Assembly (NCBI GenBank): GCA_030697205.1
Contig: JAUYQP010000032.1
Coordinates: forward strand, 62,001-126,000
Length of the DNA stretch: 64,000 nt
DNA from: Mycobacteriales bacterium
GTDB taxonomy: Bacteria > Actinomycetota > Actinomycetes > Mycobacteriales > SCTD01
Direction of reading: 5' to 3'
Each line of letters opens with the position of its first letter. Positions within the stretch are counted from its first letter, which is position 1. Shown here piece after piece: positions 4,336 through 50,368 of this stretch. A program made the position numbers and the translations under genes. Below the pieces are notes generated by a model. It did no database searches and was not told the DNA's origin. It worked only from the letters and a program-made list of their open reading frames with translations.

Positions 4336-5871
4336 GTGCTCGTCACGTCCTTCGTCGCCGGCCACCCCGTCCAGGGCACCGCCGGGACCTTCACGTCCGT
4401 CAACCCCGCGCAGCTCGACGACGTCGTCGCGGAGGTGTCGCTCGCCTCCGCCGACCAGCTCGTCGAGGCCTTTCGGGCCGCGAAGGCAGCGCAGCCCGCC
4501 TGGGCCGCCGTGCCCGCCCCTGTGCGCGGCAAGACGATCGCCGCGATCGGCCGGCTCGTCGAGGCCAACAAGGAGTCACTGGCGGCGCTGGTGACCCGCG
4601 AGGTCGGCAAGCCGCGCGCGGAGGCGCTCGGTGAGGTGCAGGAGATCATCGACACCTGCGACTTCTTCCTCGGTGAGGGCCGGCGCCTCTACGGCCAGAC
4701 CGTGCCGTCGGAGATGCGCGACAAGCAGCTGTTCACCTTCCGGATGCCGGTCGGCGTGGCTGGCATCATCACCGCCGGCAACTTCCCCGTCGCCGTGCCC
4801 TCCTGGTACCTCGTGCCCGCGCTGCTGTGCGGCAACGCCGTCGTGTGGAAGCCCGCCGACTACTCCGCGGCGCTCGGCGACGCCCTCACCCGGCTGTTCG
4901 TCGCGGGCGGCCTGCCCCCGGGTGTCCTCAACACCGTCCACGCCGACGGGCCGACCACCTACGACGGGTTGTCGCTCGCGCTCGAGCAGGGCCTCGTGCA
5001 GAAGGTCGGCTTCACCGGCTCGTCGGAGGTCGGCGCGCGCATCGGCGAGCTCACCGGCCGCCACCTGCAGACCGCCTGCCTCGAGCTCGGCGGCAAGAAC
5101 CCGCTCGTCGTCATGCCCGACGCCGACCTCGACCTCGCCGCCGAGGGCGCGCTGTTCAGCGGCTTCGGCACGGCCGGTCAGCGCTGCACCTCGCTCGGCG
5201 TCGCGATCGTGCACTCCTCGGTCCACGACGCGTTCCTCGAGAAGCTGCTCGCCCGCCTCGCGGACGCTCGGGTCGGTGACCCGACGCAGGACGTCCTCTA
5301 TGGCCCGATGCTGTCGGAGCGCTTCCTCGCCGGCTGGGAGAAGTGGCTCGGGGAGATCCAGCCGCACCACAGCACCCACGGACCGACCGGCCGGATCACG
5401 TCGACCAACCCGCGGCCGGGCTTCGTCGGTGACCCCGACGCGGGCGTCTACGCCCACCCGGTGGTCGTCTCCGGCGTACGCCCCGACGACGCCCTCTACC
5501 GCCACGAGACCTTCGGGCCGCTGGTGTCGGTGATGTCCTTCGAGACCTTCGACGAGGCGATCGCGCTCGCCAACGACCACGGCTACGGCCTGTCGTCGGC
5601 CATCTACACCAACGACCCCAAGGCCGCCTGGGACTTCCGCTCGCGGGTGTCGGCCGGGATGGTGTCGGTGAACAACTCGACCTCCGGCGCCGAGGCGCAC
5701 CTGCCCTTCGGCGGCAACGGCAAGTCCGGCAACGGCTCGCGGCAGAGCGGCGTGTGGGTGCTCGATCAGTTCACCCGCTGGCAGTCGATGAACTGGGACT
5801 ACGCCGGCACCCTGCAGAAGGCGCAGATGGACACCGAGGAGGCCGCCGCCGACCTGGACTTCCGGCTGTAG
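4336..5871 (+). CDS. NAD(P)-dependent aldehyde dehydrogenase, probably 2-aminoadipate semialdehyde dehydrogenase
   Basis: This 511-residue aldehyde dehydrogenase has the active-site Glu in CLELGGKNP and the catalytic Cys in GTAGQRCTSLG. The cofactor-fold motif FTGSSEVGARIG and the late ETFGPLVSVMSF block are also present. It starts with GTG 3 nt after the lat stop and is surely co-transcribed with it. By context it would oxidise 2-aminoadipate semialdehyde (in equilibrium with piperideine-6-carboxylate) to 2-aminoadipate. The substrate is inferred from the neighbour, not read from residues. Its TAG stop also forms the first three bases of the -10 hexamer for the next gene. Confidence 0.85.
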   Translation: MLVTSFVAGHPVQGTAGTFTSVNPAQLDDVVAEVSLASADQLVEAFRAAKAAQPAWAAVPAPVRGKTIAAIGRLVEANKESLAALVTREVGKPRAEALGEVQEIIDTCDFFLGEGRRLYGQTVPSEMRDKQLFTFRMPVGVAGIITAGNFPVAVPSWYLVPALLCGNAVVWKPADYSAALGDALTRLFVAGGLPPGVLNTVHADGPTTYDGLSLALEQGLVQKVGFTGSSEVGARIGELTGRHLQTACLELGGKNPLVVMPDADLDLAAEGALFSGFGTAGQRCTSLGVAIVHSSVHDAFLEKLLARLADARVGDPTQDVLYGPMLSERFLAGWEKWLGEIQPHHSTHGPTGRITSTNPRPGFVGDPDAGVYAHPVVVSGVRPDDALYRHETFGPLVSVMSFETFDEAIALANDHGYGLSSAIYTNDPKAAWDFRSRVSAGMVSVNNSTSGAEAHLPFGGNGKSGNGSRQSGVWVLDQFTRWQSMNWDYAGTLQKAQMDTEEAAADLDFRL

Positions 5872-5874
5872 CCT
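5869..5874 (+). promoter_or_regulatory. Leaderless -10 element built on the preceding stop codon
   Basis: TAGCCT starts with the TAG stop of the aldehyde dehydrogenase gene (5869-5871). Seven nucleotides later comes the GTG start at 5882. The next gene can therefore have its own leaderless promoter although the spacer is only 10 nt. Confidence 0.55.
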
Positions 5875-5881
5875 GCCGCGC

Positions 5882-6367
5882 GTGACCGTGCGACAGCGAT
5901 TCGACAGCGGCATCCAGCGCCTCGCGGGGACCGTGGTCTTCGCGCGGGTCGCGCGGCCGGTGATGCCGGTCCTCGACCGGGTCACCCATCGGCTCACCGG
6001 TGGCCGCTTCCTGCTCTCCACGGTCTTCGTGCCCGCTCTCGTCCTGCACACCACGGGTGCGAAGAGCGGCCTGCCGCGCGAGTCCCCGCTCGCCTCGCTG
6101 CCCGACGGCGACGGCTTCTACGTGGTCGGCTCGAACTGGGGCGGCGCCTCCCACCCGGCCTGGACCGCCAACCTCATCGCGCACCCCGACGCCTCGGTGA
6201 CCTACCGGGGCCGGACCTTCCCGATCCACGCCCACCTGCTCAGCGCTGCCGAGAAGGCCGAGGTCTGGCCGAGGCTGCTCGAGGTTTGGCCCACCTACGA
6301 CACCTATGTCGAACGCTCGGGGCGTGACCTGCGCGTCTTCCTGCTCACCCGCGTGTCCGCGTCCTGA
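5882..6367 (+). CDS. Nitroreductase/deazaflavin-dependent oxidoreductase family protein (Ddn/DUF385-like)
   Basis: This 161-residue protein belongs to the split-barrel family that includes mycobacterial Ddn. The recognisable blocks are LVLHTTGAKSGLPRESPL, the strand DGFYVVGSNWGG followed by HPAWTANLIAHPDASV, and the final RDLRVFLL. Members bind F420 or another flavin and reduce quinones or nitro compounds; the natural substrate here cannot be read from sequence. The GTG start at 5882 is set by the -10 element 7 nt upstream. Confidence 0.8.
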   Translation: MTVRQRFDSGIQRLAGTVVFARVARPVMPVLDRVTHRLTGGRFLLSTVFVPALVLHTTGAKSGLPRESPLASLPDGDGFYVVGSNWGGASHPAWTANLIAHPDASVTYRGRTFPIHAHLLSAAEKAEVWPRLLEVWPTYDTYVERSGRDLRVFLLTRVSAS

Positions 6368-7416: not shown

Positions 7417-9021
7417 TCAGTGGCCGCCGGCGCGGTACCAGCGCGGCGACGTCGTCGGTGGCGGGGTCCACGAGGCCTTCACGACCAGCAGGTTGGGGCG
7501 ACCGCTCGCGATGCCGGCCGCCACCGCAGCACCCAGCTCCGCCACCGTCACCTCGCGCGCGTCGACCCGGAAGGCCGCCGCCATCGCCACGAAGTCGGGC
7601 GGCTCGAGATCGCAGCCGAGCGGCGCGAGCCCGTCCTTGGTGAAGTCGTAGGCGAGCATCCCGTAGCCGCCGTCGTCGACGAGCACGACCGTCACCGGCA
7701 GCCGCTCCTGGGCGGCCGTCGCGAGGTCACCGCAGGCGAAGAGGAAGCCACCGTCACCGACGACCGCGACCGCGGGCCGGCCGGACAGCGCCGTCCCGAG
7801 CGCGGCGGGGAAGCCGAAGCCCAGCGTCCCCCAGCCCACCGGGTAGGCCAGTCCGCGCGGCTGCCCGACCCGCCCGAACCCGCCGTACCAGTAGCCCGGG
7901 ACGCACATGTCGCACACCACGACGGCGTCGTCGGGGAGCCCCGACTCGAGCGCGTCGAGGAAGTCGGTCTCGGGACCGGCGTACGACGCACGCCCCGCCG
8001 GGCGCTCCCACCAGGGCTCGCGCGCGGGTCCGGGCAGCGCGGCGACGAGGCGCGCCACGGCGGACGACACGTCCTCCTGCAGCCACACGTCGGGCTCGAC
8101 GTTGACCGGCTTCGCGAGGTCGACGACGACGAGCGAGCGCGGGCGCGGCTGCCGGAAGCCCTGGGTGTTCATGAAGTCGAGGTCGCTGCCGAGCACGACG
8201 ACGCAGTCGGCCTCGTCCCACAGCGCGCCCGCCTCGGGCACGTGCGGCGGCAGGGGCACGAGGTGCGGGTGGTCGGGGGGCAGCAGGCCACGGCCGCCGT
8301 ACGACGACAGGACCGGTGCGCCGAGGGCCCGGGCCAGCCGGTCGACCAGGTCGCCGGCGTCGGAGGCGGTCGCTCCCCCGCCGACCCACAGCAACGGCTT
8401 CGCGGAGGTAAGGAGCTCCTCCAGCGCCGGCTCGCGCTCTCCGTCGGCGACGACGGGCCCTGTCCAGGACCGGCTGGCCAGGGTCCGCTGCACGGCCTGG
8501 CCGGTGACGGTCGCCGAGAGCAGGTCGGTCGGGATCTCGAGGTAGACCGGACGGCGTGGGTGCTCCAGGGCAAGCTCGCCGGCGCGCACGACGTCGTCGT
8601 ACACGCTGTCGACCGACGTCACGAGCACCTGCGCCTTGGTGACCGGGCGGAAGAAGCCGGCCTGGTCGACGGTCTCGTGCAGCACCCCGCGGTAGACGCC
8701 CTCGCGCCGCAGCGTCGTCGGGATGTCGGTCGCGACGACGAGCAGCGGCGAGTGCGACGCCCACGCCTCGCCGACGGCGGTGACGACGTTGGACGCACCC
8801 GGGCCGGTCGTGGTGATCGCGACGCCGAGGCGGCCGGTCGCGCGGGCGTATCCGTCCGCGGCGTAGCCGGCGGTCTGCTCGTGGCGCACCCCGACCAGTC
8901 GCACGCCGGAGCCCGGGAAGCCCTTCCAGGCCGCGAGGTTGTGCACCCCGGGCAGCCCGAAGGCCACCTCCACGCCGAGCGCCTCGAGGGCCCTCACGAG
9001 AGCCTCACCGCCGGTCGCCAT
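7417..9021 (-). CDS. Thiamine diphosphate-dependent enzyme (acetolactate synthase/decarboxylase family)
   Basis: This 534-residue protein has the three-domain ThDP layout. The N-terminal Pyr domain holds the catalytic Glu in VRHEQTAGYAADGYARATG. The central domain follows, and the C-terminal PP domain has the ThDP/metal motif GDGGFLFACGDLATA with DDGGYG. Start ATG 9021 is fixed by a perfect ribosome binding site (AGGAGGT 6-7 nt upstream) and by homology beginning there. It overlaps the end of the CoA-transferase gene by 17 nt, so the two are co-translated. This pairing recalls oxalyl-CoA decarboxylase with formyl-CoA transferase, but neither specificity can be shown here. Confidence 0.8.
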   Translation of the reverse strand: MATGGEALVRALEALGVEVAFGLPGVHNLAAWKGFPGSGVRLVGVRHEQTAGYAADGYARATGRLGVAITTTGPGASNVVTAVGEAWASHSPLLVVATDIPTTLRREGVYRGVLHETVDQAGFFRPVTKAQVLVTSVDSVYDDVVRAGELALEHPRRPVYLEIPTDLLSATVTGQAVQRTLASRSWTGPVVADGEREPALEELLTSAKPLLWVGGGATASDAGDLVDRLARALGAPVLSSYGGRGLLPPDHPHLVPLPPHVPEAGALWDEADCVVVLGSDLDFMNTQGFRQPRPRSLVVVDLAKPVNVEPDVWLQEDVSSAVARLVAALPGPAREPWWERPAGRASYAGPETDFLDALESGLPDDAVVVCDMCVPGYWYGGFGRVGQPRGLAYPVGWGTLGFGFPAALGTALSGRPAVAVVGDGGFLFACGDLATAAQERLPVTVVLVDDGGYGMLAYDFTKDGLAPLGCDLEPPDFVAMAAAFRVDAREVTVAELGAAVAAGIASGRPNLLVVKASWTPPPTTSPRWYRAGGH

Positions 9022-10246
9022 CGACCACCTCCTGGACCTGCGCGGCCGACAGGCCGAGCGACGTGAGCACCTCGACGGTGTGCTGACCGAGCAGCGGCGG
9101 GGCCCGCCGGACCCGTGGCCGCACCCCGTCGAGACGCAGCGGTGAGCCGACCACGGTGACCGGGCCGGCCGGGTGGTCGACGTCCTGCAGCAGACCCACC
9201 GCCGTGAGCTGCGGGTCGTCGGCGAGCTGCCCGACGTCCTGCACCGGGGCGCAGGGCACTCCCGCGGCCGCGAGCACCTCGGCCCACTGCGCGGCGGGCC
9301 GGGCGCCGAAGACCGCGGCCAGCGCGGCGGACAGCGCACCCCGGTCGGCGACCCGTCCCGCGTTGGTCGCCCAGCCGGGCAGCGGCTCCAGCCGGATGGC
9401 GGCGCACAGGTCGGCGAACTGGCTGTCGTTGCCGGCCCCGACGACCAGGGGGCGGTCGGCGCACGGGACCGGGCCGTAGGGCGCGATGTTGGGGTGGTCG
9501 TTGCCGGCGAAGGACGGCACGACGCCGCCGACGAGGGCGTTGCTCGCCTGGTTGACCAGCATCGACACGGCGGCCTCGAGCAGCCCGACCTCGACCCTCG
9601 TGGCCCGGCGGGTGAGCAGACCGGCCAACGCGCCCACCGCGGCGTAGAGACCGGTCACGACATCGGCGACGGCGACGCCGACCTTCGTGGGCTCGGACGT
9701 GCCGGTCACCGACATGAGGCCCGAGCGGGCCTGCGCCATCACGTCGTACCCCGGCTTGTGCCCGTCCGGACCGTCGGACCCCGCGCCGCGCACCGAGACC
9801 CAGGTCGCGCGGGTCTGCTCGCGCAGCTCGGCCAGGCCGAGGGCCTCGAGGTGGTGCGGCAGGAAGTTCTCGACGACGACGTCGGCGGTAAGCGCGAGCC
9901 GGCGCACGACGGCCCGGCCCCTTGCCGTGGTGAGGTCCAGCGCGACGGAGCGGCGGTCGCGGTTGACGGAGAAGAAGTACGCCGCGTCCGCTCCGTGGAA
10001 GGGCGGTCCCCAGTGGCGAGTGTCGTCACCGGTGCCTGGGCGCTCGACCTTGACGACGTCGGCGCCGAGGTCGGCGAGCACCATGCAGCAGTAGGGCCCG
10101 GCGAGCACGCGGGACAGGTCGAGGACCCGCACACCGGCGAGCGGGCCGGCCCCGGGCGCGTCGGTCACGTCCGGCCAGCCGGGCCCCGCGTCGAGGGCGG
10201 AGACCAGCCCGGCGAGCTCCGGGTCGACGTCTCGAGGGGCAGTCAC
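9005..10246 (-). CDS. Class III CoA-transferase (CaiB/BaiF family)
   Basis: This 413-residue protein moves CoA between carboxylic acids. The family blocks are VRVLDLSRVLAGPYCCMVLADLG, VIKVERP-like VVKVERPGTGDDTR and SVNRDRRSVALDL. The catalytic Asp lies in PGYDVMAQARSG, about 170 residues in. The GTG start at 10246 is downstream of a shared bidirectional promoter core. The downstream ThDP enzyme overlaps its 3' end, which implies a joint pathway, perhaps decarboxylation of an acyl-CoA. Confidence 0.85.
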   Translation of the reverse strand: MTAPRDVDPELAGLVSALDAGPGWPDVTDAPGAGPLAGVRVLDLSRVLAGPYCCMVLADLGADVVKVERPGTGDDTRHWGPPFHGADAAYFFSVNRDRRSVALDLTTARGRAVVRRLALTADVVVENFLPHHLEALGLAELREQTRATWVSVRGAGSDGPDGHKPGYDVMAQARSGLMSVTGTSEPTKVGVAVADVVTGLYAAVGALAGLLTRRATRVEVGLLEAAVSMLVNQASNALVGGVVPSFAGNDHPNIAPYGPVPCADRPLVVGAGNDSQFADLCAAIRLEPLPGWATNAGRVADRGALSAALAAVFGARPAAQWAEVLAAAGVPCAPVQDVGQLADDPQLTAVGLLQDVDHPAGPVTVVGSPLRLDGVRPRVRRAPPLLGQHTVEVLTSLGLSAAQVQEVVDGDRR

Positions 10247-10255
10247 AGCGCGGTC

Positions 10256-10265
10256 ACCCTAGCCT
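10256..10265. promoter_or_regulatory. Bidirectional -10 core ACCCTAGCCT
   Basis: On the plus strand TAGCCT (10260-10265) lies 7 nt before GTG 10273. On the minus strand TAGGGT (10261-10256) lies 9 nt before GTG 10246. The two hexamers share the central TA, so one 10-bp site can serve both genes. The same layout occurs at 26007-26016. Confidence 0.55.
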
Positions 10266-10272
10266 CTTGAGG

Positions 10273-10665
10273 GTGGCTCTCGACCCTGCCGACCTGCCCG
10301 CCGATGTCGTGTCGTTCCTGACCGAGCGGCACCTCGCGACCCTGACGACACTGCGCCCTGACGGCACCCCGCACGTCGTCGCGGTGGGCTTCACCTGGGA
10401 CCCCGAGAGCCGCCTGGGCCGGGTCATCTGCAGCGGCACGTCGCGCAAGGCGCACCACGTCCGCGCGGGCTCGCCCCGCGCGGTCGTCGCGCAGGTGGAC
10501 GGTCCGCGCTGGCTCTCGCTCGAGGGCGTGCCCGTCGTGTCCGACGACCCGGAGCGGGTCGCAGAAGCCGTACGCCGCTACGCGTCCCGCTACCGCCAGC
10601 CGGCCGTCAACCCGGCTCGCGTCGTCATCGAGATCGCGGTCGACCGGGTCCTCGGCCGCGGCTGA
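10273..10665 (+). CDS. PPOX-class F420- or FMN-dependent oxidoreductase
   Basis: This protein of about 130 residues has the split-barrel fold. ERHLATLTTLRPDGTPHVVAV is the characteristic N-terminal block, followed by RKAHHVRAGSPRAVVAQVDG. Such proteins in actinobacteria use F420 or bind heme or biliverdin; the substrate is unknown. GTG 10273 is preferred over TTG 10267 because TAGCCT lies exactly 7 nt upstream of it, as in other leaderless genes here. Confidence 0.8.
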   Translation: MALDPADLPADVVSFLTERHLATLTTLRPDGTPHVVAVGFTWDPESRLGRVICSGTSRKAHHVRAGSPRAVVAQVDGPRWLSLEGVPVVSDDPERVAEAVRRYASRYRQPAVNPARVVIEIAVDRVLGRG

Positions 10666-18619: not shown

Positions 18620-21322
18620 TCAGGTCACGGAGGTGTAGGCGACGACGCCGCGGCGGACCGCGGTGACCGCCTTGCGCGCACTGCCGCGCACCTCGGCCGG
18701 TGCGATGTCGGCGATCTGCCCGAGCAGGTCGAGCAGCTGCTTGCACCAGCGCACGAAGTCGCCCGCGGTCAGTTCGTCGCCGTCACCGAGGACGGTGTCG
18801 AGGCCCGCCCCGGAGGCCCAGGCGTACGCCGCCGCGGCGAACCCCGGGTCGGGCTCACGGAGCAGTTCGACCTTGTGGCGACCCTCGAGGTCGGCGAGCC
18901 GGGCCCAGAGCCGCGAGACCTCCGCGAGGGCGCCCTCGACGGCACCGCTCGGGACCCGCACCGCGCCGCCCTCGGGCCGGCGGGCGCTGTAGACGAGCGA
19001 CGACACCACCGCGGCGAGCTCGGCCGGACCGAGGCCGTCCCAGGCGCCGGTGCGCAGGCACTCGACCACCAGCAGGTCGGTCTCGCTGTAGACCCGGGCG
19101 AGCTGTCGGCCGGCGTCGGTGACCTCGTCATCGGCGAGGTAGCCGAGCTCGGTCAGCACCGCGCAGACCCGGTCGAAGGTCCGGGCGATCGAGCCGGTCT
19201 TGCCGGCGACGCGGTGCTCGAGGGCGTCGGTGTCGTGGCGCAGCCGCACCCACCGCTCGGCCCACCGCATGTGGGCCTCGCGGTCGTCGCAGCCGTGCAC
19301 CGGGTGCCGCCGCAGGGCGGCCCGCAGCGACTGCAGCTGGTCGTCGTCTCCGGGGTTGGACCGCCCGGCCCGCCCCGTGCGCGGGCCGCGCGAGTCGAGG
19401 CCGAGGTTGCGCAGCGAGGAGGCGAGGTCGCGCCGGACCTGCGGCTGGCGGTGGTCGACCCGCTTGGGCAGCCGCACCTGGGCGAGCGCCTCGACCGCGG
19501 ACGGGAAGTCTGCGGGTGAGAGCCGGCCCGCCCAGCGGTCCTCGGTGACGACCAGCGGGTGCGCGTCGCCACCCATCGACAGGCCCGGGTCGAGCACCAC
19601 GGCGAGCCCGGTGCGGCGCCCGTGCGGCACCCGGATCACGTCACCGGGCTTGAGGGCCTCGAGCGACTGCGCTGCCGCCGCCCGGCGCGACGCCGCGCCG
19701 GTGCGGGCGAGGTCGGTCTCGCGCCGCTTCACCGATGCGCGGAGCTCGGCGTACTCCTGGGTGTCACCGAGGTGGCAGGTCATCGCCTCGGTGTAGCCGG
19801 CCAGCGCCTCGAGGTTGCGCGAGACCTGGCGGGCGAGGCCGACGACGGAGCGGTCGGCCTGGAACTGCGCGAAGGAGCTCTCGAGCAGCGCCCGCGCGGG
19901 CTCGCGACCGACCGAGCCGACCAGGTTGCAGGCCATGTTGTAGGACGGGCGGAAGCTCGACCGCAACGGGTAGGTGCGGGTCGAGGCGAGGCCCGCGACC
20001 GCCTTCGGGTCGAGGCCCTGCTGCCACAGCACGACGGCGTGGCCCTCGACGTCGATGCCGCGGCGGCCGGCGCGGCCGGTGAGCTGGGTGTACTCCCCCG
20101 GGGTCACGTCGGCGTGGGTCTCGCCGTTCCACTTCACGAGCTTCTCGAGCACGACCGACCGGGCCGGCATGTTGATGCCGAGCGCGAGCGTCTCCGTGGC
20201 GAAGACCGCCTTGACGAGCCCCTGGACGAACAGTTCCTCGACGACCTCCTTGAAGGTCGGCAGCATCCCCGCGTGGTGCGCGGCCAGCCCGCGCTCGAGC
20301 CCCTCGAGCCAGTCCCAGTAGCCCAGGACGCGCAGGTCCTCGCGCGGGATGTCGGCCGTGCGCCGCTCGACGTGGCGGCGGACCGTCTCGCGCTCCTCGG
20401 CGGTGTTGAGCCGCAACCCGGAGCGCAGGCACTGCTCGACGGCCGCGGCGCAGCCGGCCCGGCTGAAGACGAAGGTGATCGCGGGCAGCAGCCCCTCGCG
20501 GTCGAGCCGCTCGATGACGTCGGGCCGCGACGCCTGGTGGCGCCGGGCAGGTCGTTCCCGGTCCCCGCTCCGCCCGCGGGGCAGGTAGCGCTCCTCGTCG
20601 CGCGCCAGCCGCACGAGCTCCGGGTTGACGTCGCGCTGGTCCTGGTCAACGAAGAGGTCGTAGAGGCGCGTGCCCACCAGGACGTGCTGCCACAGCGGCA
20701 CCGGCCGGTGCTCCTCGACGACGATCGTGGTGTCGCCGCGCACCGTCACGAGCCACTCGCCGAACTCCTCGGCGTTGCTCACCGTCGCCGACAGCGAGAC
20801 GACCGCCACCTCGTCGGGCAGGTGGATGATCACCTCTTCCCAGACCGCCCCGCGCTCGCGGTCGGCGAGGTAGTGGACCTCGTCCATGACGACGTGCGAC
20901 AGCCCGCGCAGGGCGTCCGAGCCGGCGTAGAGCATGTTGCGCAGGACCTCGGTGGTCATGACGACCACGTCCGCGTCGCCGTTGACCGCGTTGTCGCCGG
21001 TGAGCAGGCCGACGCGGTCGGGCCCGTGGCGGTCGACGAGGTCGGCGTACTTCTGGTTGGACAGCGCCTTGATCGGCGTCGTGTAGAAGCACTTGCCGCC
21101 GCCGCGCAGGGCGAGGTGCACGGCGAACTCCCCGACCACCGTCTTGCCGGCGCCGGTGGGAGCCGCGACAAGCACGCCCTGACCCGCCTCGAGGGCCTGG
21201 CAGGCGGTGCGCTGGAAGGCGTCGAGCCCGAAGGGGTAGCCGACCTCGAACTCCGCGAGCGCGACACCGACCTGGGTCCTGCGGAACGCCGCGTAGCGCT
21301 CGGCGGGCGAGGGCTCGCTCAT
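18620..21322 (-). CDS. helY: DEAD/DEAH-box RNA helicase, HelY/Mtr4-like
   Basis: This 900-residue superfamily 2 helicase has Walker A in VLVAAPTGAGKTVVGEFA, motif Ia TPIKALSNQKY, motif II VVMDEVHYLADRERG and motif III SLSATVSNAEEFGEW. Motifs V and VI are in VFATETLALGINMPARSVV and TQLTGRAGRRGIDVEGHAVV. The C-terminal half carries the long helical region of Ski2/Mtr4 relatives. The position next to tatC and tatA is the same as in mycobacteria. A -10 hexamer, TAGGGT, 6 nt before the ATG uses the stop codon of the kinase gene upstream, giving it its own leaderless transcript. Confidence 0.9.
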   Translation of the reverse strand: MSEPSPAERYAAFRRTQVGVALAEFEVGYPFGLDAFQRTACQALEAGQGVLVAAPTGAGKTVVGEFAVHLALRGGGKCFYTTPIKALSNQKYADLVDRHGPDRVGLLTGDNAVNGDADVVVMTTEVLRNMLYAGSDALRGLSHVVMDEVHYLADRERGAVWEEVIIHLPDEVAVVSLSATVSNAEEFGEWLVTVRGDTTIVVEEHRPVPLWQHVLVGTRLYDLFVDQDQRDVNPELVRLARDEERYLPRGRSGDRERPARRHQASRPDVIERLDREGLLPAITFVFSRAGCAAAVEQCLRSGLRLNTAEERETVRRHVERRTADIPREDLRVLGYWDWLEGLERGLAAHHAGMLPTFKEVVEELFVQGLVKAVFATETLALGINMPARSVVLEKLVKWNGETHADVTPGEYTQLTGRAGRRGIDVEGHAVVLWQQGLDPKAVAGLASTRTYPLRSSFRPSYNMACNLVGSVGREPARALLESSFAQFQADRSVVGLARQVSRNLEALAGYTEAMTCHLGDTQEYAELRASVKRRETDLARTGAASRRAAAAQSLEALKPGDVIRVPHGRRTGLAVVLDPGLSMGGDAHPLVVTEDRWAGRLSPADFPSAVEALAQVRLPKRVDHRQPQVRRDLASSLRNLGLDSRGPRTGRAGRSNPGDDDQLQSLRAALRRHPVHGCDDREAHMRWAERWVRLRHDTDALEHRVAGKTGSIARTFDRVCAVLTELGYLADDEVTDAGRQLARVYSETDLLVVECLRTGAWDGLGPAELAAVVSSLVYSARRPEGGAVRVPSGAVEGALAEVSRLWARLADLEGRHKVELLREPDPGFAAAAYAWASGAGLDTVLGDGDELTAGDFVRWCKQLLDLLGQIADIAPAEVRGSARKAVTAVRRGVVAYTSVT

Positions 21323-21328
21323 CCCACG

Positions 21329-21334
21329 ACCCTA
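21329..21334 (-). promoter_or_regulatory. Leaderless -10 element of helY built on the kinase stop codon
   Basis: On the minus strand TAGGGT begins with the TAG stop of the diacylglycerol kinase gene (21334-21332). Six nucleotides later comes ATG 21322. Confidence 0.55.
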
Positions 21335-22234
21335 CGTCGCTGGAGGTGTCCCGATCACGCGCAGCGCGCCGGGGACCACCGTTGTCGTGAGCGGCAGCCG
21401 ACCGAGGGCCTCGCCGTCGGCGTAGACGCTCGCGTCCCCCTCGATGCGGACCTCGCGGGCCCGCCCGGTCCAGACCTCCGGCGCCGCGAGATGGCCGCCC
21501 CGGAAGACCGACGGGAACAGCCGCAGGAAGCGCCTGCGCGACATCTCCCCGATGACGACGACGTCGAGCAGGCCGTCGTCGAGCCGGGCGTCGGGGCAGA
21601 CCCGCATGCCCCCGCCGTACGACGGGGCGTTGCCGACGGCGACGAGCATCGCGTCGACCTGGCGTGGCACCCCGTCGAGCACGAGCAGGAAGCGCTTCGG
21701 CCGGTAGCTCATGAGCTCCGCGACGACGGCCACGTCGTAGCGCCGACGGCCGCGGGGGAAGCGCATCCGGTTGGCGCGGTCGTTGGTCGCGGCATCGAAG
21801 CCGGTGCCGAGCACGCACGCCCACCACTGGTCGCCGCACCGCACCGCGTCGACCTGGCGCGCGGGTGCGGTCAGCAGCAGCTGGGCGCTGCGGGCGGGGT
21901 CGCCGAGCGGCAGTCCGAGGGCCCGCGCGAGGTCGTTGCCGGTGCCGGTCGGGACCAGCCCGAAGCCCGTGGGTGTCCCCGCGACGGCCTGCAGCGCCAG
22001 GTGGGCCATCCCGTCACCACCGACCGCGACGAGCGCCTCGGCGCCCTGCGCGACCGCCTCGCTGCACAGCCGCGCGGCATCGGGCCCGTCGTGGCCGACG
22101 ACGCGGACGACGGAGGTGCCCGCGGCGCGCAGGTGCTGCTCGACGACGTCGGCCGCCCTGCCCGCGCGGCCCTTGCCGCTGGCCGGGTTGACGACCAGCG
22201 CGACCCGCCCGAGCCCGCTCGGAGCGCCGGTCAG
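21332..22234 (-). CDS. Diacylglycerol kinase family lipid kinase, apparent CTG start
   Basis: This protein of about 300 residues is of the DagK/YegS type and phosphorylates diacylglycerol or a related lipid. ALVVNPASGKGRAG is the N-terminal nucleotide-binding block. VAVGGDGMAHLALQAV holds the GGDG motif, LVPTGTGNDLARALGLPLG follows, and DGEALGRLPL is near the C terminus. In frame, no ATG, GTG or TTG lies between the tatC stop and the first conserved strand. The best start is CTG 22234, overlapping the tatC stop (CTGA), with GAGGTG as ribosome binding site. It is probably co-transcribed with tatAC. Confidence 0.85.
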   Translation of the reverse strand: MTGAPSGLGRVALVVNPASGKGRAGRAADVVEQHLRAAGTSVVRVVGHDGPDAARLCSEAVAQGAEALVAVGGDGMAHLALQAVAGTPTGFGLVPTGTGNDLARALGLPLGDPARSAQLLLTAPARQVDAVRCGDQWWACVLGTGFDAATNDRANRMRFPRGRRRYDVAVVAELMSYRPKRFLLVLDGVPRQVDAMLVAVGNAPSYGGGMRVCPDARLDDGLLDVVVIGEMSRRRFLRLFPSVFRGGHLAAPEVWTGRAREVRIEGDASVYADGEALGRLPLTTTVVPGALRVIGTPPAT

Positions 22235-26006: not shown

Positions 26007-26016
26007 ACGCTAGCCT
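26007..26016. promoter_or_regulatory. Bidirectional leaderless -10 core ACGCTAGCCT
   Basis: Rightward TAGCCT (26011-26016) lies 6 nt before a GTG at 26023. Leftward TAGCGT (26012-26007) lies 7 nt before the pafB GTG at 25999. The hexamers overlap at the TA of a CTAG palindrome, so RNA polymerase cannot hold both at once. This would make pafB and the DUF3866-cyclase operon compete. Confidence 0.6.
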
Positions 26017-26022
26017 GCCGGC

Positions 26023-26049
26023 GTGCCTGAGCGCGGGAGGGTCCGGTGA
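26023..26049 (+). CDS. Eight-codon leader peptide overlapping the DUF3866 start
   Basis: GTG 26023 opens a mini-frame (VPERGRVR) that ends in TGA at 26047-26049, overlapping the GTG start of the next gene (GTGA). The -10 TAGCCT lies 6 nt upstream, so the mini-frame would be the leaderless start. It also contains GGGAGG, a ribosome binding site for the DUF3866 gene. Whether it is translated is an inference. Confidence 0.4.
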   Translation: MPERGRVR

Positions 26050-27098
26050 TCGTCTGGCGGCGCGGGACCGTGGCCGCGACCGGCCGCTCCTGGCCGGGAG
26101 CGGTCGAGCTCGACGTGGACGTCGAGGGCCCGGCCCCGAGCGGCCGCCTGCGCGCGCTCGCCTACACCGACCTGGTCGGGACCCCAGCGCCCGGCGACGC
26201 GGTCCTGCTCAACGCGACGGCGCTCGGCCTGGGCCTCGGCACCGGCGGCTACGCCCTCGTCATCGCGGTCCCCGACCGGCTGCCGCCCGACCGCGAGGGC
26301 CCGGGCCACCTCGTCAAGGCCCGCTACACACCGCTGCAGACCGTCGTGCTCGGCACCGACGAGCAGGACTCCCCCGCCCACGCACTGCTCACCGACGACG
26401 GCCCGCTGCCCGGCACCCCGGTGGTCGTCGCCGACCTGCACTCCTCCCTGCCCGCGGTCGTCGCGGGGGTCCTGCACGACCGGCCCGGGACCCGGGTGGC
26501 CTACGTCATGACCGACGGCGGCACCCTGCCGCTTGCCTTCTCCCGCACCGTCGCGGCCCTGCGCCCGTCGCTCTGCGGCACCGTCACCGCCGGACAGGCC
26601 TACGGCGGCGACGGCGAGGCCGTCACGGTCCACAGCGCCCTGCTGGTCGCCGTGCGGGTGCTGCACGCCGAGGTCGTCGTGGTCACCCAGGGTCCCGGCA
26701 ACCTCGGCACCGGCACCCCGTGGGGCTTCTCCGGGGTCGCGGCGGGCGAGGCTGTCAACGCCGCCGCGGCCGTCGGCGCCCGGCCGGTCGCGACGCTGCG
26801 GATGTCGCAGGCCGACCCGCGCGAGCGCCACCGCGGCGTGTCCCACCACTCGCTCACCGCCTACGGCCGGGTCGCCCTCTCCCCCGCCGACGTCGTCGTC
26901 CCGTCGTCGTGGGCGGCGCTGGTCGACCCGACCGCCTTCGCCCGCCACCGCGTCGTGACGGTCGACGACGACGGCCTGCTCGACGCCCTGCGGGCCGGCC
27001 CCGTCCCGCTGTCGTCCATGGGCCGCGGCCTCGACGACGACCCGGTGGCCTTCGTCGCGGCGGCGGCGGCCGGCCGGCACGCCGCAACCCTCCTGTGA
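26046..27098 (+). CDS. DUF3866 family protein
   Basis: This 350-residue protein belongs to a conserved actinobacterial family of unknown function often found beside pafBC. It has an N-terminal beta-rich part (TDLVGTPAPGDAVLLN) and a Rossmann-like central part (VAYVMTDGGTLPLAFSRTVA, VTAGQAYGGDGEAV). The conserved segments VVTQGPGNLGTGTPWGFSG and RMSQADPRERHRGVSHHSL follow. The last blocks, rich in Gly and His, suggest ligand binding, but no activity is established that I know of. It overlaps the downstream cyclase by GTGA. Confidence 0.85.
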   Translation: MIVWRRGTVAATGRSWPGAVELDVDVEGPAPSGRLRALAYTDLVGTPAPGDAVLLNATALGLGLGTGGYALVIAVPDRLPPDREGPGHLVKARYTPLQTVVLGTDEQDSPAHALLTDDGPLPGTPVVVADLHSSLPAVVAGVLHDRPGTRVAYVMTDGGTLPLAFSRTVAALRPSLCGTVTAGQAYGGDGEAVTVHSALLVAVRVLHAEVVVVTQGPGNLGTGTPWGFSGVAAGEAVNAAAAVGARPVATLRMSQADPRERHRGVSHHSLTAYGRVALSPADVVVPSSWAALVDPTAFARHRVVTVDDDGLLDALRAGPVPLSSMGRGLDDDPVAFVAAAAAGRHAATLL

Positions 27099-48868: not shown

Positions 48869-49984
48869 TCAGGGCGTGACGGCCTTGGCGACGTCGGCGA
48901 CCGACACCACCCGCACCTCGCCGGTGGCCGGGTCGGACGTGACGTACTCCGTCGCGGGGTGCCGCCGCAGCGCCTCCAGCAGCGGCTCCCCCGACAGGGT
49001 CGGGTCGAGCACCATGCCGTCGACGATGCGGCGAGCGACGGTCCCGACGGTGACCCAGGGCCGACGCGCCTCGGGCGTCGCGAGGACCGCGGCCTCGTTG
49101 ACGACAGCCTCGAGCCGGTCGGCGGAGTCCACGACGACGACCCCGCTCACCCCGGCCTCCTGGGCACGTCGCACGGCCTCGGACAGCGGCAGGGTCGAGG
49201 GCACCCGGATGGCCGGTCGGGCGAGCGCCACGACGCTGACCTCGGGCAGCTTGGTCATCACCTGCGACCGCCGCAGGGCCGCGGTCGCGCCGGAGAAGAT
49301 GACGGCGGACATGAGCGCGGAGACCAGCACCTCGAAGATGCCCACGTCGTAGTCGAGCGCCGCCGGCACGATGCCCACGAGCAGGACGGGTACGCCGACG
49401 AGGGCCACCGCCTGTCCGGCGCGGGCCGCCGCACGGGTGGCCCGCTCGGCGTCGCCACCGAGGTGCCAGGCGACGGCGCGCACGACCCGCCCGCCGTCGA
49501 GCGGCAGGCCCGGCAGCAGGTTGAAGACGGCGACGGCGCCGTTGACGTAGGTCAGCAGCAGGCAGATCGCGGCTGCCACGGAACCCTCGGCGAAGGCGTC
49601 ACCGACGACCAGCGCTGCGCCAGCGCTGCAGAGCAGCAACGAGACCATCGGCCCGCTGATCGCGACGGCGTACTCCCTCGCCGGGGTCTGGGGGGGCTCG
49701 GTGATCTCGGTGAGGCCGGCGAGCAGGGTGATGGTGATGGACTTCACCGGCAGGCCGAGCAGCCGGGCGACGACGCAGTGCCCGATCTCGTGCAGCAGCA
49801 CCGACAGGCCGAGCAGCAGCGCGAGACCTGCGGCGATGCCGTAGGCCCGCGCGGTCGTCGTCTCGTCCTGCAGCTGCCGGCCGAACTGCAGCACGATGAA
49901 GGCCGCGAAGAGGAACCACGACGGGGCCACCAGGACGGGTACGCCGAGGACGCGTCCGACCTGCAGGCCTCCTCTCGGGGTCAC
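48869..49984 (-). CDS. Site-2 protease family zinc metalloprotease with CBS domains
   Basis: This 371-residue M50 intramembrane protease has the zinc motif LSVLLHEIGHCVVARLLGLP. The second conserved block is VFNLLPGLPLDGGRVVRAVA (NxxPxxPLDGG), and at least six hydrophobic segments are present. Two CBS domains fill the last 130 residues. There is no PDZ domain. It is of the Rip3-like type, with nucleotide sensing by the CBS pair. GTG 49984 follows TAAGGT at 6 nt. Confidence 0.9.
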   Translation of the reverse strand: MTPRGGLQVGRVLGVPVLVAPSWFLFAAFIVLQFGRQLQDETTTARAYGIAAGLALLLGLSVLLHEIGHCVVARLLGLPVKSITITLLAGLTEITEPPQTPAREYAVAISGPMVSLLLCSAGAALVVGDAFAEGSVAAAICLLLTYVNGAVAVFNLLPGLPLDGGRVVRAVAWHLGGDAERATRAAARAGQAVALVGVPVLLVGIVPAALDYDVGIFEVLVSALMSAVIFSGATAALRRSQVMTKLPEVSVVALARPAIRVPSTLPLSEAVRRAQEAGVSGVVVVDSADRLEAVVNEAAVLATPEARRPWVTVGTVARRIVDGMVLDPTLSGEPLLEALRRHPATEYVTSDPATGEVRVVSVADVAKAVTP

Positions 49985-49990
49985 CCCCGC

Positions 49991-49996
49991 ACCTTA
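49991..49996 (-). promoter_or_regulatory. Leaderless -10 element of the site-2 protease built on the preceding stop codon
   Basis: TAAGGT on the minus strand begins with the TAA stop (49996-49994) of the 124-residue hypothetical gene. Six nucleotides follow before GTG 49984. Confidence 0.5.
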
Positions 49997-50368
49997 CGTG
50001 GCGTTGCTCGGTGTCCTGCCCGACCAGGCCACCCGACTGCCCACGGGGGCCACGTGGTGGAGGTCGACGCCGTGCAGGGCGGCGGTCCGCGCGGCGGCGG
50101 CGGCGTCGGCCGCGACGGCCACCAACCGGCCACCCGGGGCGAGGGCCAGCACGGCTGCGGGCACGTCGTGCGCGGCCACCGCGACCGCCACGTCAGCGGC
50201 GCGGGAGGCGGCCGGGGGCTCGTCCGGCTCGTCCGGCTCGACCGGTCCGGCACCCGCGAGCAGGGCGCGCCGCAGGACGTCACCGCCGCCGAGCACCACC
50301 ACGGACTGACCCGCGCGCACCCCCGCGAGCGCGGTGAGCACGGCGGCGAGCTCGCGGTCCCCTGTCAT
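49994..50368 (-). CDS. Hypothetical 124-residue Ala/Val-rich protein
   Basis: The ATG has GGGAGG at a good distance. The product reads like part of a Rossmann fold (SVVVLGGGDVLRRALLAGAG, VLALAPGGRLVAVAADAAA) with an acidic, Pro-rich insert (PVEPDEPDEPPAA), but it is too short for a full enzyme. It might be a remnant of a methyltransferase or dehydrogenase. It lies between the site-2 protease and the divergent RecB-type nuclease. Confidence 0.45.
   Translation of the reverse strand: MTGDRELAAVLTALAGVRAGQSVVVLGGGDVLRRALLAGAGPVEPDEPDEPPAASRAADVAVAVAAHDVPAAVLALAPGGRLVAVAADAAAAARTAALHGVDLHHVAPVGSRVAWSGRTPSNAT

Follow-up and report, generated by a model that had tools for sequence, protein, structure and literature searches.

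In a 64,000-nucleotide (nt) stretch of a Mycobacteriales genome (the window; bases 62001–126000 of contig 32 in a 4.02-Mb assembly), the stop codons of three genes coincide with the first half of a TANNNT hexamer that lies 6–7 nt before the start of the next gene. These stops, and others like them across the genome, appear to form the first half of the −10 box of the following leaderless gene far more often than chance would allow, and a probability of roughly 85% is assigned to this reading. The coincidence is demonstrated at the level of sequence by the register of stop and box, the type of stop codon, the missing Shine–Dalgarno motif, the conservation of the box and the avoidance of accidental boxes. 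The closest named relatives of the genome are metagenome-assembled genomes labelled Frankiales.

Leaderless-type promoters in the genome

Genome-wide counts were drawn from 2.65 Mb of the same genome (72.8% GC), in which 2518 genes were called, ending in TGA (1818), TAG (624) or TAA (76). The gene caller relied on codon usage only and used neither promoter nor ribosome-site information. TANNNT preceded the called starts at spacers of 6, 7 and 8 nt in 132, 111 and 32 cases, respectively, with 0–7 cases at most nearby spacers. Genes with TANNNT at a spacer of 6–8 nt before the called start are termed leaderless-type and number 271, or ~11% of genes. Shine–Dalgarno 4-mers were found in 9 of these 271, compared with ~45–50% elsewhere. 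No −35 element was visible, with no position upstream of the box exceeding 0.15 bits in 242 leaderless-type genes. The middle of the box mostly gives TAGNNT, with G at position 3 in 94 of 145 divergent promoters.

It is proposed that housekeeping-type promoters in this genome have TANNNT as their −10 element, and that a box 6–8 nt before a start codon causes transcription to begin on the first base of that codon, yielding a leaderless mRNA. Both this transcription start and the sigma factor are predicted. Leaderless genes led by TANNNT are well described in Actinobacteria and Deinococcus-Thermus (Zheng et al. 2011, PMC3160421; Cortes et al. 2013, PMC3898074; Deinococcus 2025, PMC12340547). The genes described here resemble the published ones in their box, its distance from the start (about 12 nt upstream), the lack of a Shine–Dalgarno motif and the lack of a visible −35 element; they differ in that letters are held in common with the upstream stop codon, which is an added feature. 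Stop or termination codons were looked for in these three texts and are nowhere mentioned.

Coincidence of stop codons and putative −10 boxes

Register 0 denotes a TANNNT box that begins on the first base of the upstream stop codon. Among the 126 codirectional leaderless-type genes, 29 (23%) lie in register 0; registers −4 to −1 and +1 to +3 are empty, and those between +4 and +15 contain 0–6 pairs apiece. When gaps are modelled on other codirectional pairs, 0.67–1.05 register-0 pairs are expected (Poisson tail <1e-30). There is a negligible probability that the coincidence reflects chance or gene calling, with TANNNT and starts randomly placed and matching starts picked by the caller. A home-made caller did choose among several starts, but it picked them without promoter information, a test that ignores downstream calls agrees with the result (below), and TANNNT is depleted in the window, with 38 occurrences against 134 expected.

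Stop codon usage shifts at the corresponding distance between genes. At gaps of 9–11 nt, 45 upstream genes end in TAG or TAA (together TAR) and 8 in TGA, compared with 117 and 327, respectively, at other gaps of 0–60 nt (Fisher, 9e-17). The initial annotation had suggested that the overlap could be general in this genome and had predicted an excess of TAG and TAA stops at this distance from starts. The excess is very strong and agrees with the exact register and the Shine–Dalgarno deficit, and the suggested generality is borne out by the 29 pairs counted in roughly two thirds of the genome.

Overlap of the stop codon with a Shine–Dalgarno motif, as in TAGGAG, could in principle raise TAG usage at gaps of 9–11 nt with no promoter involved. 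Such sharing has been published (PMC2784483), and it fits ~10 of the 16 TAR pairs at this gap that lack T at hexamer position 6 counted from the first base of the stop (T6), which read TAGGAG, TAGGGG or similar, with the stop sharing letters with the Shine–Dalgarno motif. The raw excess is slightly inflated by this minority, and conditioning on T6 removes it from the signal. When downstream calls are ignored, ATG or GTG occurs at a gap of 9–11 nt after 29 of 45 TAR stops with T6, compared with 36 of 567 TAR stops without T6 and 9 of 169 TGA stops with T6; thus T6 itself predicts the position of the start. Furthermore, Shine–Dalgarno 4-mers were found in 1 of the 29 register-0 genes and 8 of the 242 other leaderless-type genes, against 62 of 123 other codirectional genes at gaps of 5–20 nt. 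This explanation is refuted for the T6 class and is very improbable as the source of the excess.

It is also unlikely, if less remote, that each pair is served by one operon mRNA with translational coupling, the box being a remnant, or an internal promoter too weak to contribute much. Gaps of 9–11 nt are typical of operons; against this, 28 of the 29 register-0 genes lack a Shine–Dalgarno motif, the box is conserved across an order though the upstream gene changes, and the neighbours often seem unrelated in function. Many annotated register-0 pairs look to be of this kind, including a trehalose-phosphate synthase type protein with a CDC48-like ATPase and a response regulator with MurB, and an ABC ATPase with GlpX and a tyrosine phosphatase with PurK also seem unrelated. 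A second promoter between such neighbours fits better than an operon.

In the proposed arrangement, a leaderless gene directly behind a codirectional neighbour very often has, as the TA of its −10 box, the first two letters of the TAG or TAA that ends that neighbour. Melting of the DNA by RNA polymerase holoenzyme would take place at this stop, and the next mRNA would begin 6–8 nt further on. The second gene would gain its own promoter at a gap of just 9–11 nt, and the coding sequence upstream would remain free because the box needs no conserved −35 element.

Avoidance of accidental boxes

The initial annotation had also tied the choice of stop codon to promoter function. This holds, and it holds conversely: T6 is avoided after TAR where no leaderless gene follows. 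In convergent pairs, T6 was found after 3 of 302 TAR stops and after 56 of 502 TGA stops (p=5e-9), and the difference persists when only gaps of at least 12 nt are considered (2 of 135 TAR versus 31 of 319 TGA; p=0.001). Within genes, the observed/expected ratio for T at +5 from TA is 0.36 in coding sense DNA, with ratios of 0.88–1.16 at all remaining offsets between +2 and +11, and 0.12–0.35 on the antisense strand. The depletion is confined to this one offset and amounts to an avoidance of TANNNT throughout the genome.

Stop codons force TA into the reading frame, and the avoidance of T6 suggests that the T needed to finish a promoter there is removed except where it is put to use. Selection is the presumed cause, and TAG and TAA stops would thereby be kept from firing accidental promoters. 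A somewhat favoured, though far from secure, extension of the overlap is that promoter selection acts, throughout a GC-rich genome, on which stop is used and on the third base beyond it, such that TAR with T6 is kept before a leaderless gene and purged elsewhere, and that −10 boxes in turn catch upstream genes by supplying their stops. If true, promoter avoidance would be one concrete factor in how actinobacteria use TAG.

In overlapping convergent genes, TAG is unusually frequent (108 of 204 stops), perhaps since CTAG reads as a stop on either strand.

The three sites in the window

The three hexamers, with their stops and starts, all lie at the positions given in the initial annotation, and six genes were called with exactly these ends. 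Proteins were assigned with Pfam, which supported five of the six. At site 1, on the forward strand, an aldehyde dehydrogenase of 511 amino acids (4336–5871; PF00171, E=5e-131) ends in TAG at 5869–5871, which is the putative first half of the −10 box TAGCCT (5869–5874). A spacer of 7 nt separates this box from the GTG at 5882 that opens a leaderless-type gene for a protein of the F420H2-dependent quinone reductase family (161 amino acids, 5882–6367; PF04075, E=5e-28).

Sites 2 and 3 lie on the reverse strand, each with a spacer of 6 nt. At site 2, a YegS-like lipid/diacylglycerol kinase gene, of which the C-terminal part was called (21332–22009; PF19279 and PF00781), ends in TAG at 21334–21332 within the box TAGGGT (21329–21334). 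The leaderless-type gene that follows starts with ATG at 21322 and encodes a DEAD-box helicase with a DSHCT domain (900 amino acids, 18620–21322; PF08148 and PF00270). The open frame of the kinase comprises 496 codons and its homology to relatives spans 288–433 amino acids, which suggests that its true start lies further upstream than called. At site 3, a gene for a 124-amino-acid protein (49994–50368; gene-call score 40) ends in TAA at 49996–49994 within the box TAAGGT (49991–49996), and an M50 family peptidase gene (371 amino acids, 48869–49984; PF02163, E=3e-20) starts with GTG at 49984.

Neither GGAG nor AGGA was found in the spacers after TAGCCT, TAGGGT and TAAGGT at the three sites. The 124-amino-acid protein had no match in Pfam; its homologues occur in 15 of 23 other genomes of the family, mostly adjoining the M50 gene. 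In three of these genomes (G001, G010 and G018) an in-frame TAG falls within the match, which suggests that the C-terminus of the protein is variable.

No further stop/−10 pair was found among the gene calls of the window. A fourth candidate, TAGCGT at 26012–26007 with a spacer of 7 nt before GTG 25999, was rejected: its 'stop' belongs to an antisense open reading frame inside the forward-strand gene 26046–27098, so the site is an ordinary divergent promoter.

History of the sites in relatives

Conservation of the box was read at site 2 only, in 28 relatives of the helicase from the same family and order. The box is present at a spacer of 6–8 nt in 26 of the 28, in forms that include TAGCCT, TAACCT, TAGCGT, TAGGCT and TACGCT. 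Two alternative genes lie upstream, encoding either the lipid kinase or a TatC-like protein (a likeness judged by eye only). The upstream gene stops on the box itself, with TAG or TAA, in the genome studied here and in G011, G003, G007 and G029. In G016 (L157) and G012 (L156), the upstream stop is TGA, and its T doubles as the final T of the box (TANNNTGA). In most other relatives, the upstream stop lies 19–65 nt before the helicase box. The TatC-like protein of G007 ends TPSEL-AP on the TAG of the box, and its 87%-identical counterpart in G010 stops after TPSQL, 30 nt earlier; similarly, the upstream protein of G012 continues for 13 residues beyond the common end and into the box. A conserved box with varying upstream ends indicates that the promoter is the older element at site 2 and that upstream frames were caught on it several times. 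The stop need not precede the promoter, which refines the earlier reading of this site.

Many of the helicase relatives carry TGA immediately behind the box (TAGCCTGA); this was rejected as a general pattern. Of 1634 TGA stops in the genome studied here, a single one has the hexamer-and-stop string TANNNTGA, and the start in that sole case lies 4 nt beyond the stop.

For site 1, most of 80 loci from other actinobacteria have an aldehyde dehydrogenase that ends in FRL-stop or no more than a few residues away; the stop is TGA, TAG or TAA, and the neighbours differ. Homologues of the quinone reductase in the relatives lie on contigs other than that of the aldehyde dehydrogenase. The stop at site 1 is ancestral, and the promoter most likely arose on this pre-existing stop.

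Two routes to the shared letters are accordingly envisaged. At 5869, acquisition of T6 would have turned an existing stop into a promoter; at 21334, an upstream frame, its own stop lost or the spacer deleted, would have come to end on the TAG, TAA or TGA letters of an older box.

The second route could also account for the pattern without any selection for sharing, the −10 boxes simply supplying the first stop encountered in frame by upstream genes that had lost their own. Stops are rare at 73% GC, ~72% of −10 boxes read TAG or TAA, and a third base of G or A is about as common in divergent promoters (103 of 145) as in non-shared codirectional boxes. Correspondingly, the frames at site 2 and in G007, G012 and G029 end on an older box. 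Site 1 is left unexplained, however, as its FRL stop is ancestral across Actinobacteria, and the empty registers +1 to +3 and the ~30-fold excess exceed what drift would be expected to leave, an expectation set by judgement rather than by a model. Such passive capture is regarded as a real possibility, although not the probable one.

Occurrence in other genomes

Across the 80 loci of other actinobacteria (Pseudonocardia, Asanoa, Microlunatus, Solirubrobacterales and others), register 0 accounts for 9 of the 65 codirectional leaderless-type genes, and no other register between −7 and +4 is occupied. TAR and TGA stops at gaps of 9–11 nt number 15 and 11, against 59 and 124 at other gaps (p=0.015).

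Several points weigh against the proposal that stops double as −10 boxes. The genome-wide counts cover ~65% of the genome and depend on a home-made gene caller. No register-0 pair was found in the Rhodococcus megaplasmid pRHL1 (500 kb) or in Deinococcota plasmids (150 kb), which hold just 6 codirectional leaderless-type pairs each; with so few leaderless pairs, the plasmid sets (Rhodococcus pRHL1, Sinorhizobium pSymB and Deinococcota) test little. Finally, the promoter arrangement of site 1 was not seen in relatives, except for a box in L180 where the contig ends 7 nt later.

One of the loci, L187, is titled Candidatus Melainabacteria; it has 74% GC and an actinobacterial style of genes and promoters, and is probably a mislabelled bin.

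Relation to published work

No account of stop codons shared with −10 boxes was found in the open literature or in the main texts of the papers on leaderless genes, a scope that excludes subscription papers and supplements. On this survey, both the coupling of −10 boxes to stops through shared letters and the avoidance of accidental boxes at stops appear to be new. Palleja et al. (2009, PMC2784483) described the overlap of stop codons and Shine–Dalgarno motifs in short codirectional spacers. There, as here, letters of the stop also belong to a start signal for the following gene, and the choice of stop shifts with it; theirs is a translation signal at gaps of 5–8 nt, whereas the present case concerns a promoter element at gaps of 9–11 nt.

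In discussing the TAG paradox, Ho and Hurst (2022, PMC9348620) named avoidance of the Pribnow box as one imaginable reason for trends in TAG usage and called no idea compelling. By contrast, avoidance is measured here base by base beside stops, together with a positive use of the very same word as a promoter, and the avoidance of T6 argues for such a force beside stops in one genome. In mycobacteria, a single base change can create an active TANNNT −10 element whose transcripts are then translated (PMC6728331, PMC10653884); those new boxes lie in genes and promoter regions generally, and the stop codon is not singled out.

The overlap would mean that, at dozens of places in a genome, a single codon both ends translation and, by inference, helps to initiate transcription, and it would supply a rule for locating promoters within apparent actinobacterial operons. 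It also offers a testable link to the departure of TAG usage from base composition, as a single base separates each TAG or TAA from a promoter, and this base is avoided where it is not in use.

Divergent promoters with shared letters

Boxes can also share letters with each other. At 10256–10265 of the window, the facing −10 boxes TAGGGT (reverse strand) and TAGCCT (forward strand) have a common TA and separate the divergent genes 9005–10246 (reverse) and 10273–10665 (forward). Genome-wide, 13 divergent pairs are leaderless-type on both sides, and in 2 of the 13 the boxes lie 4 nt apart with letters in common.
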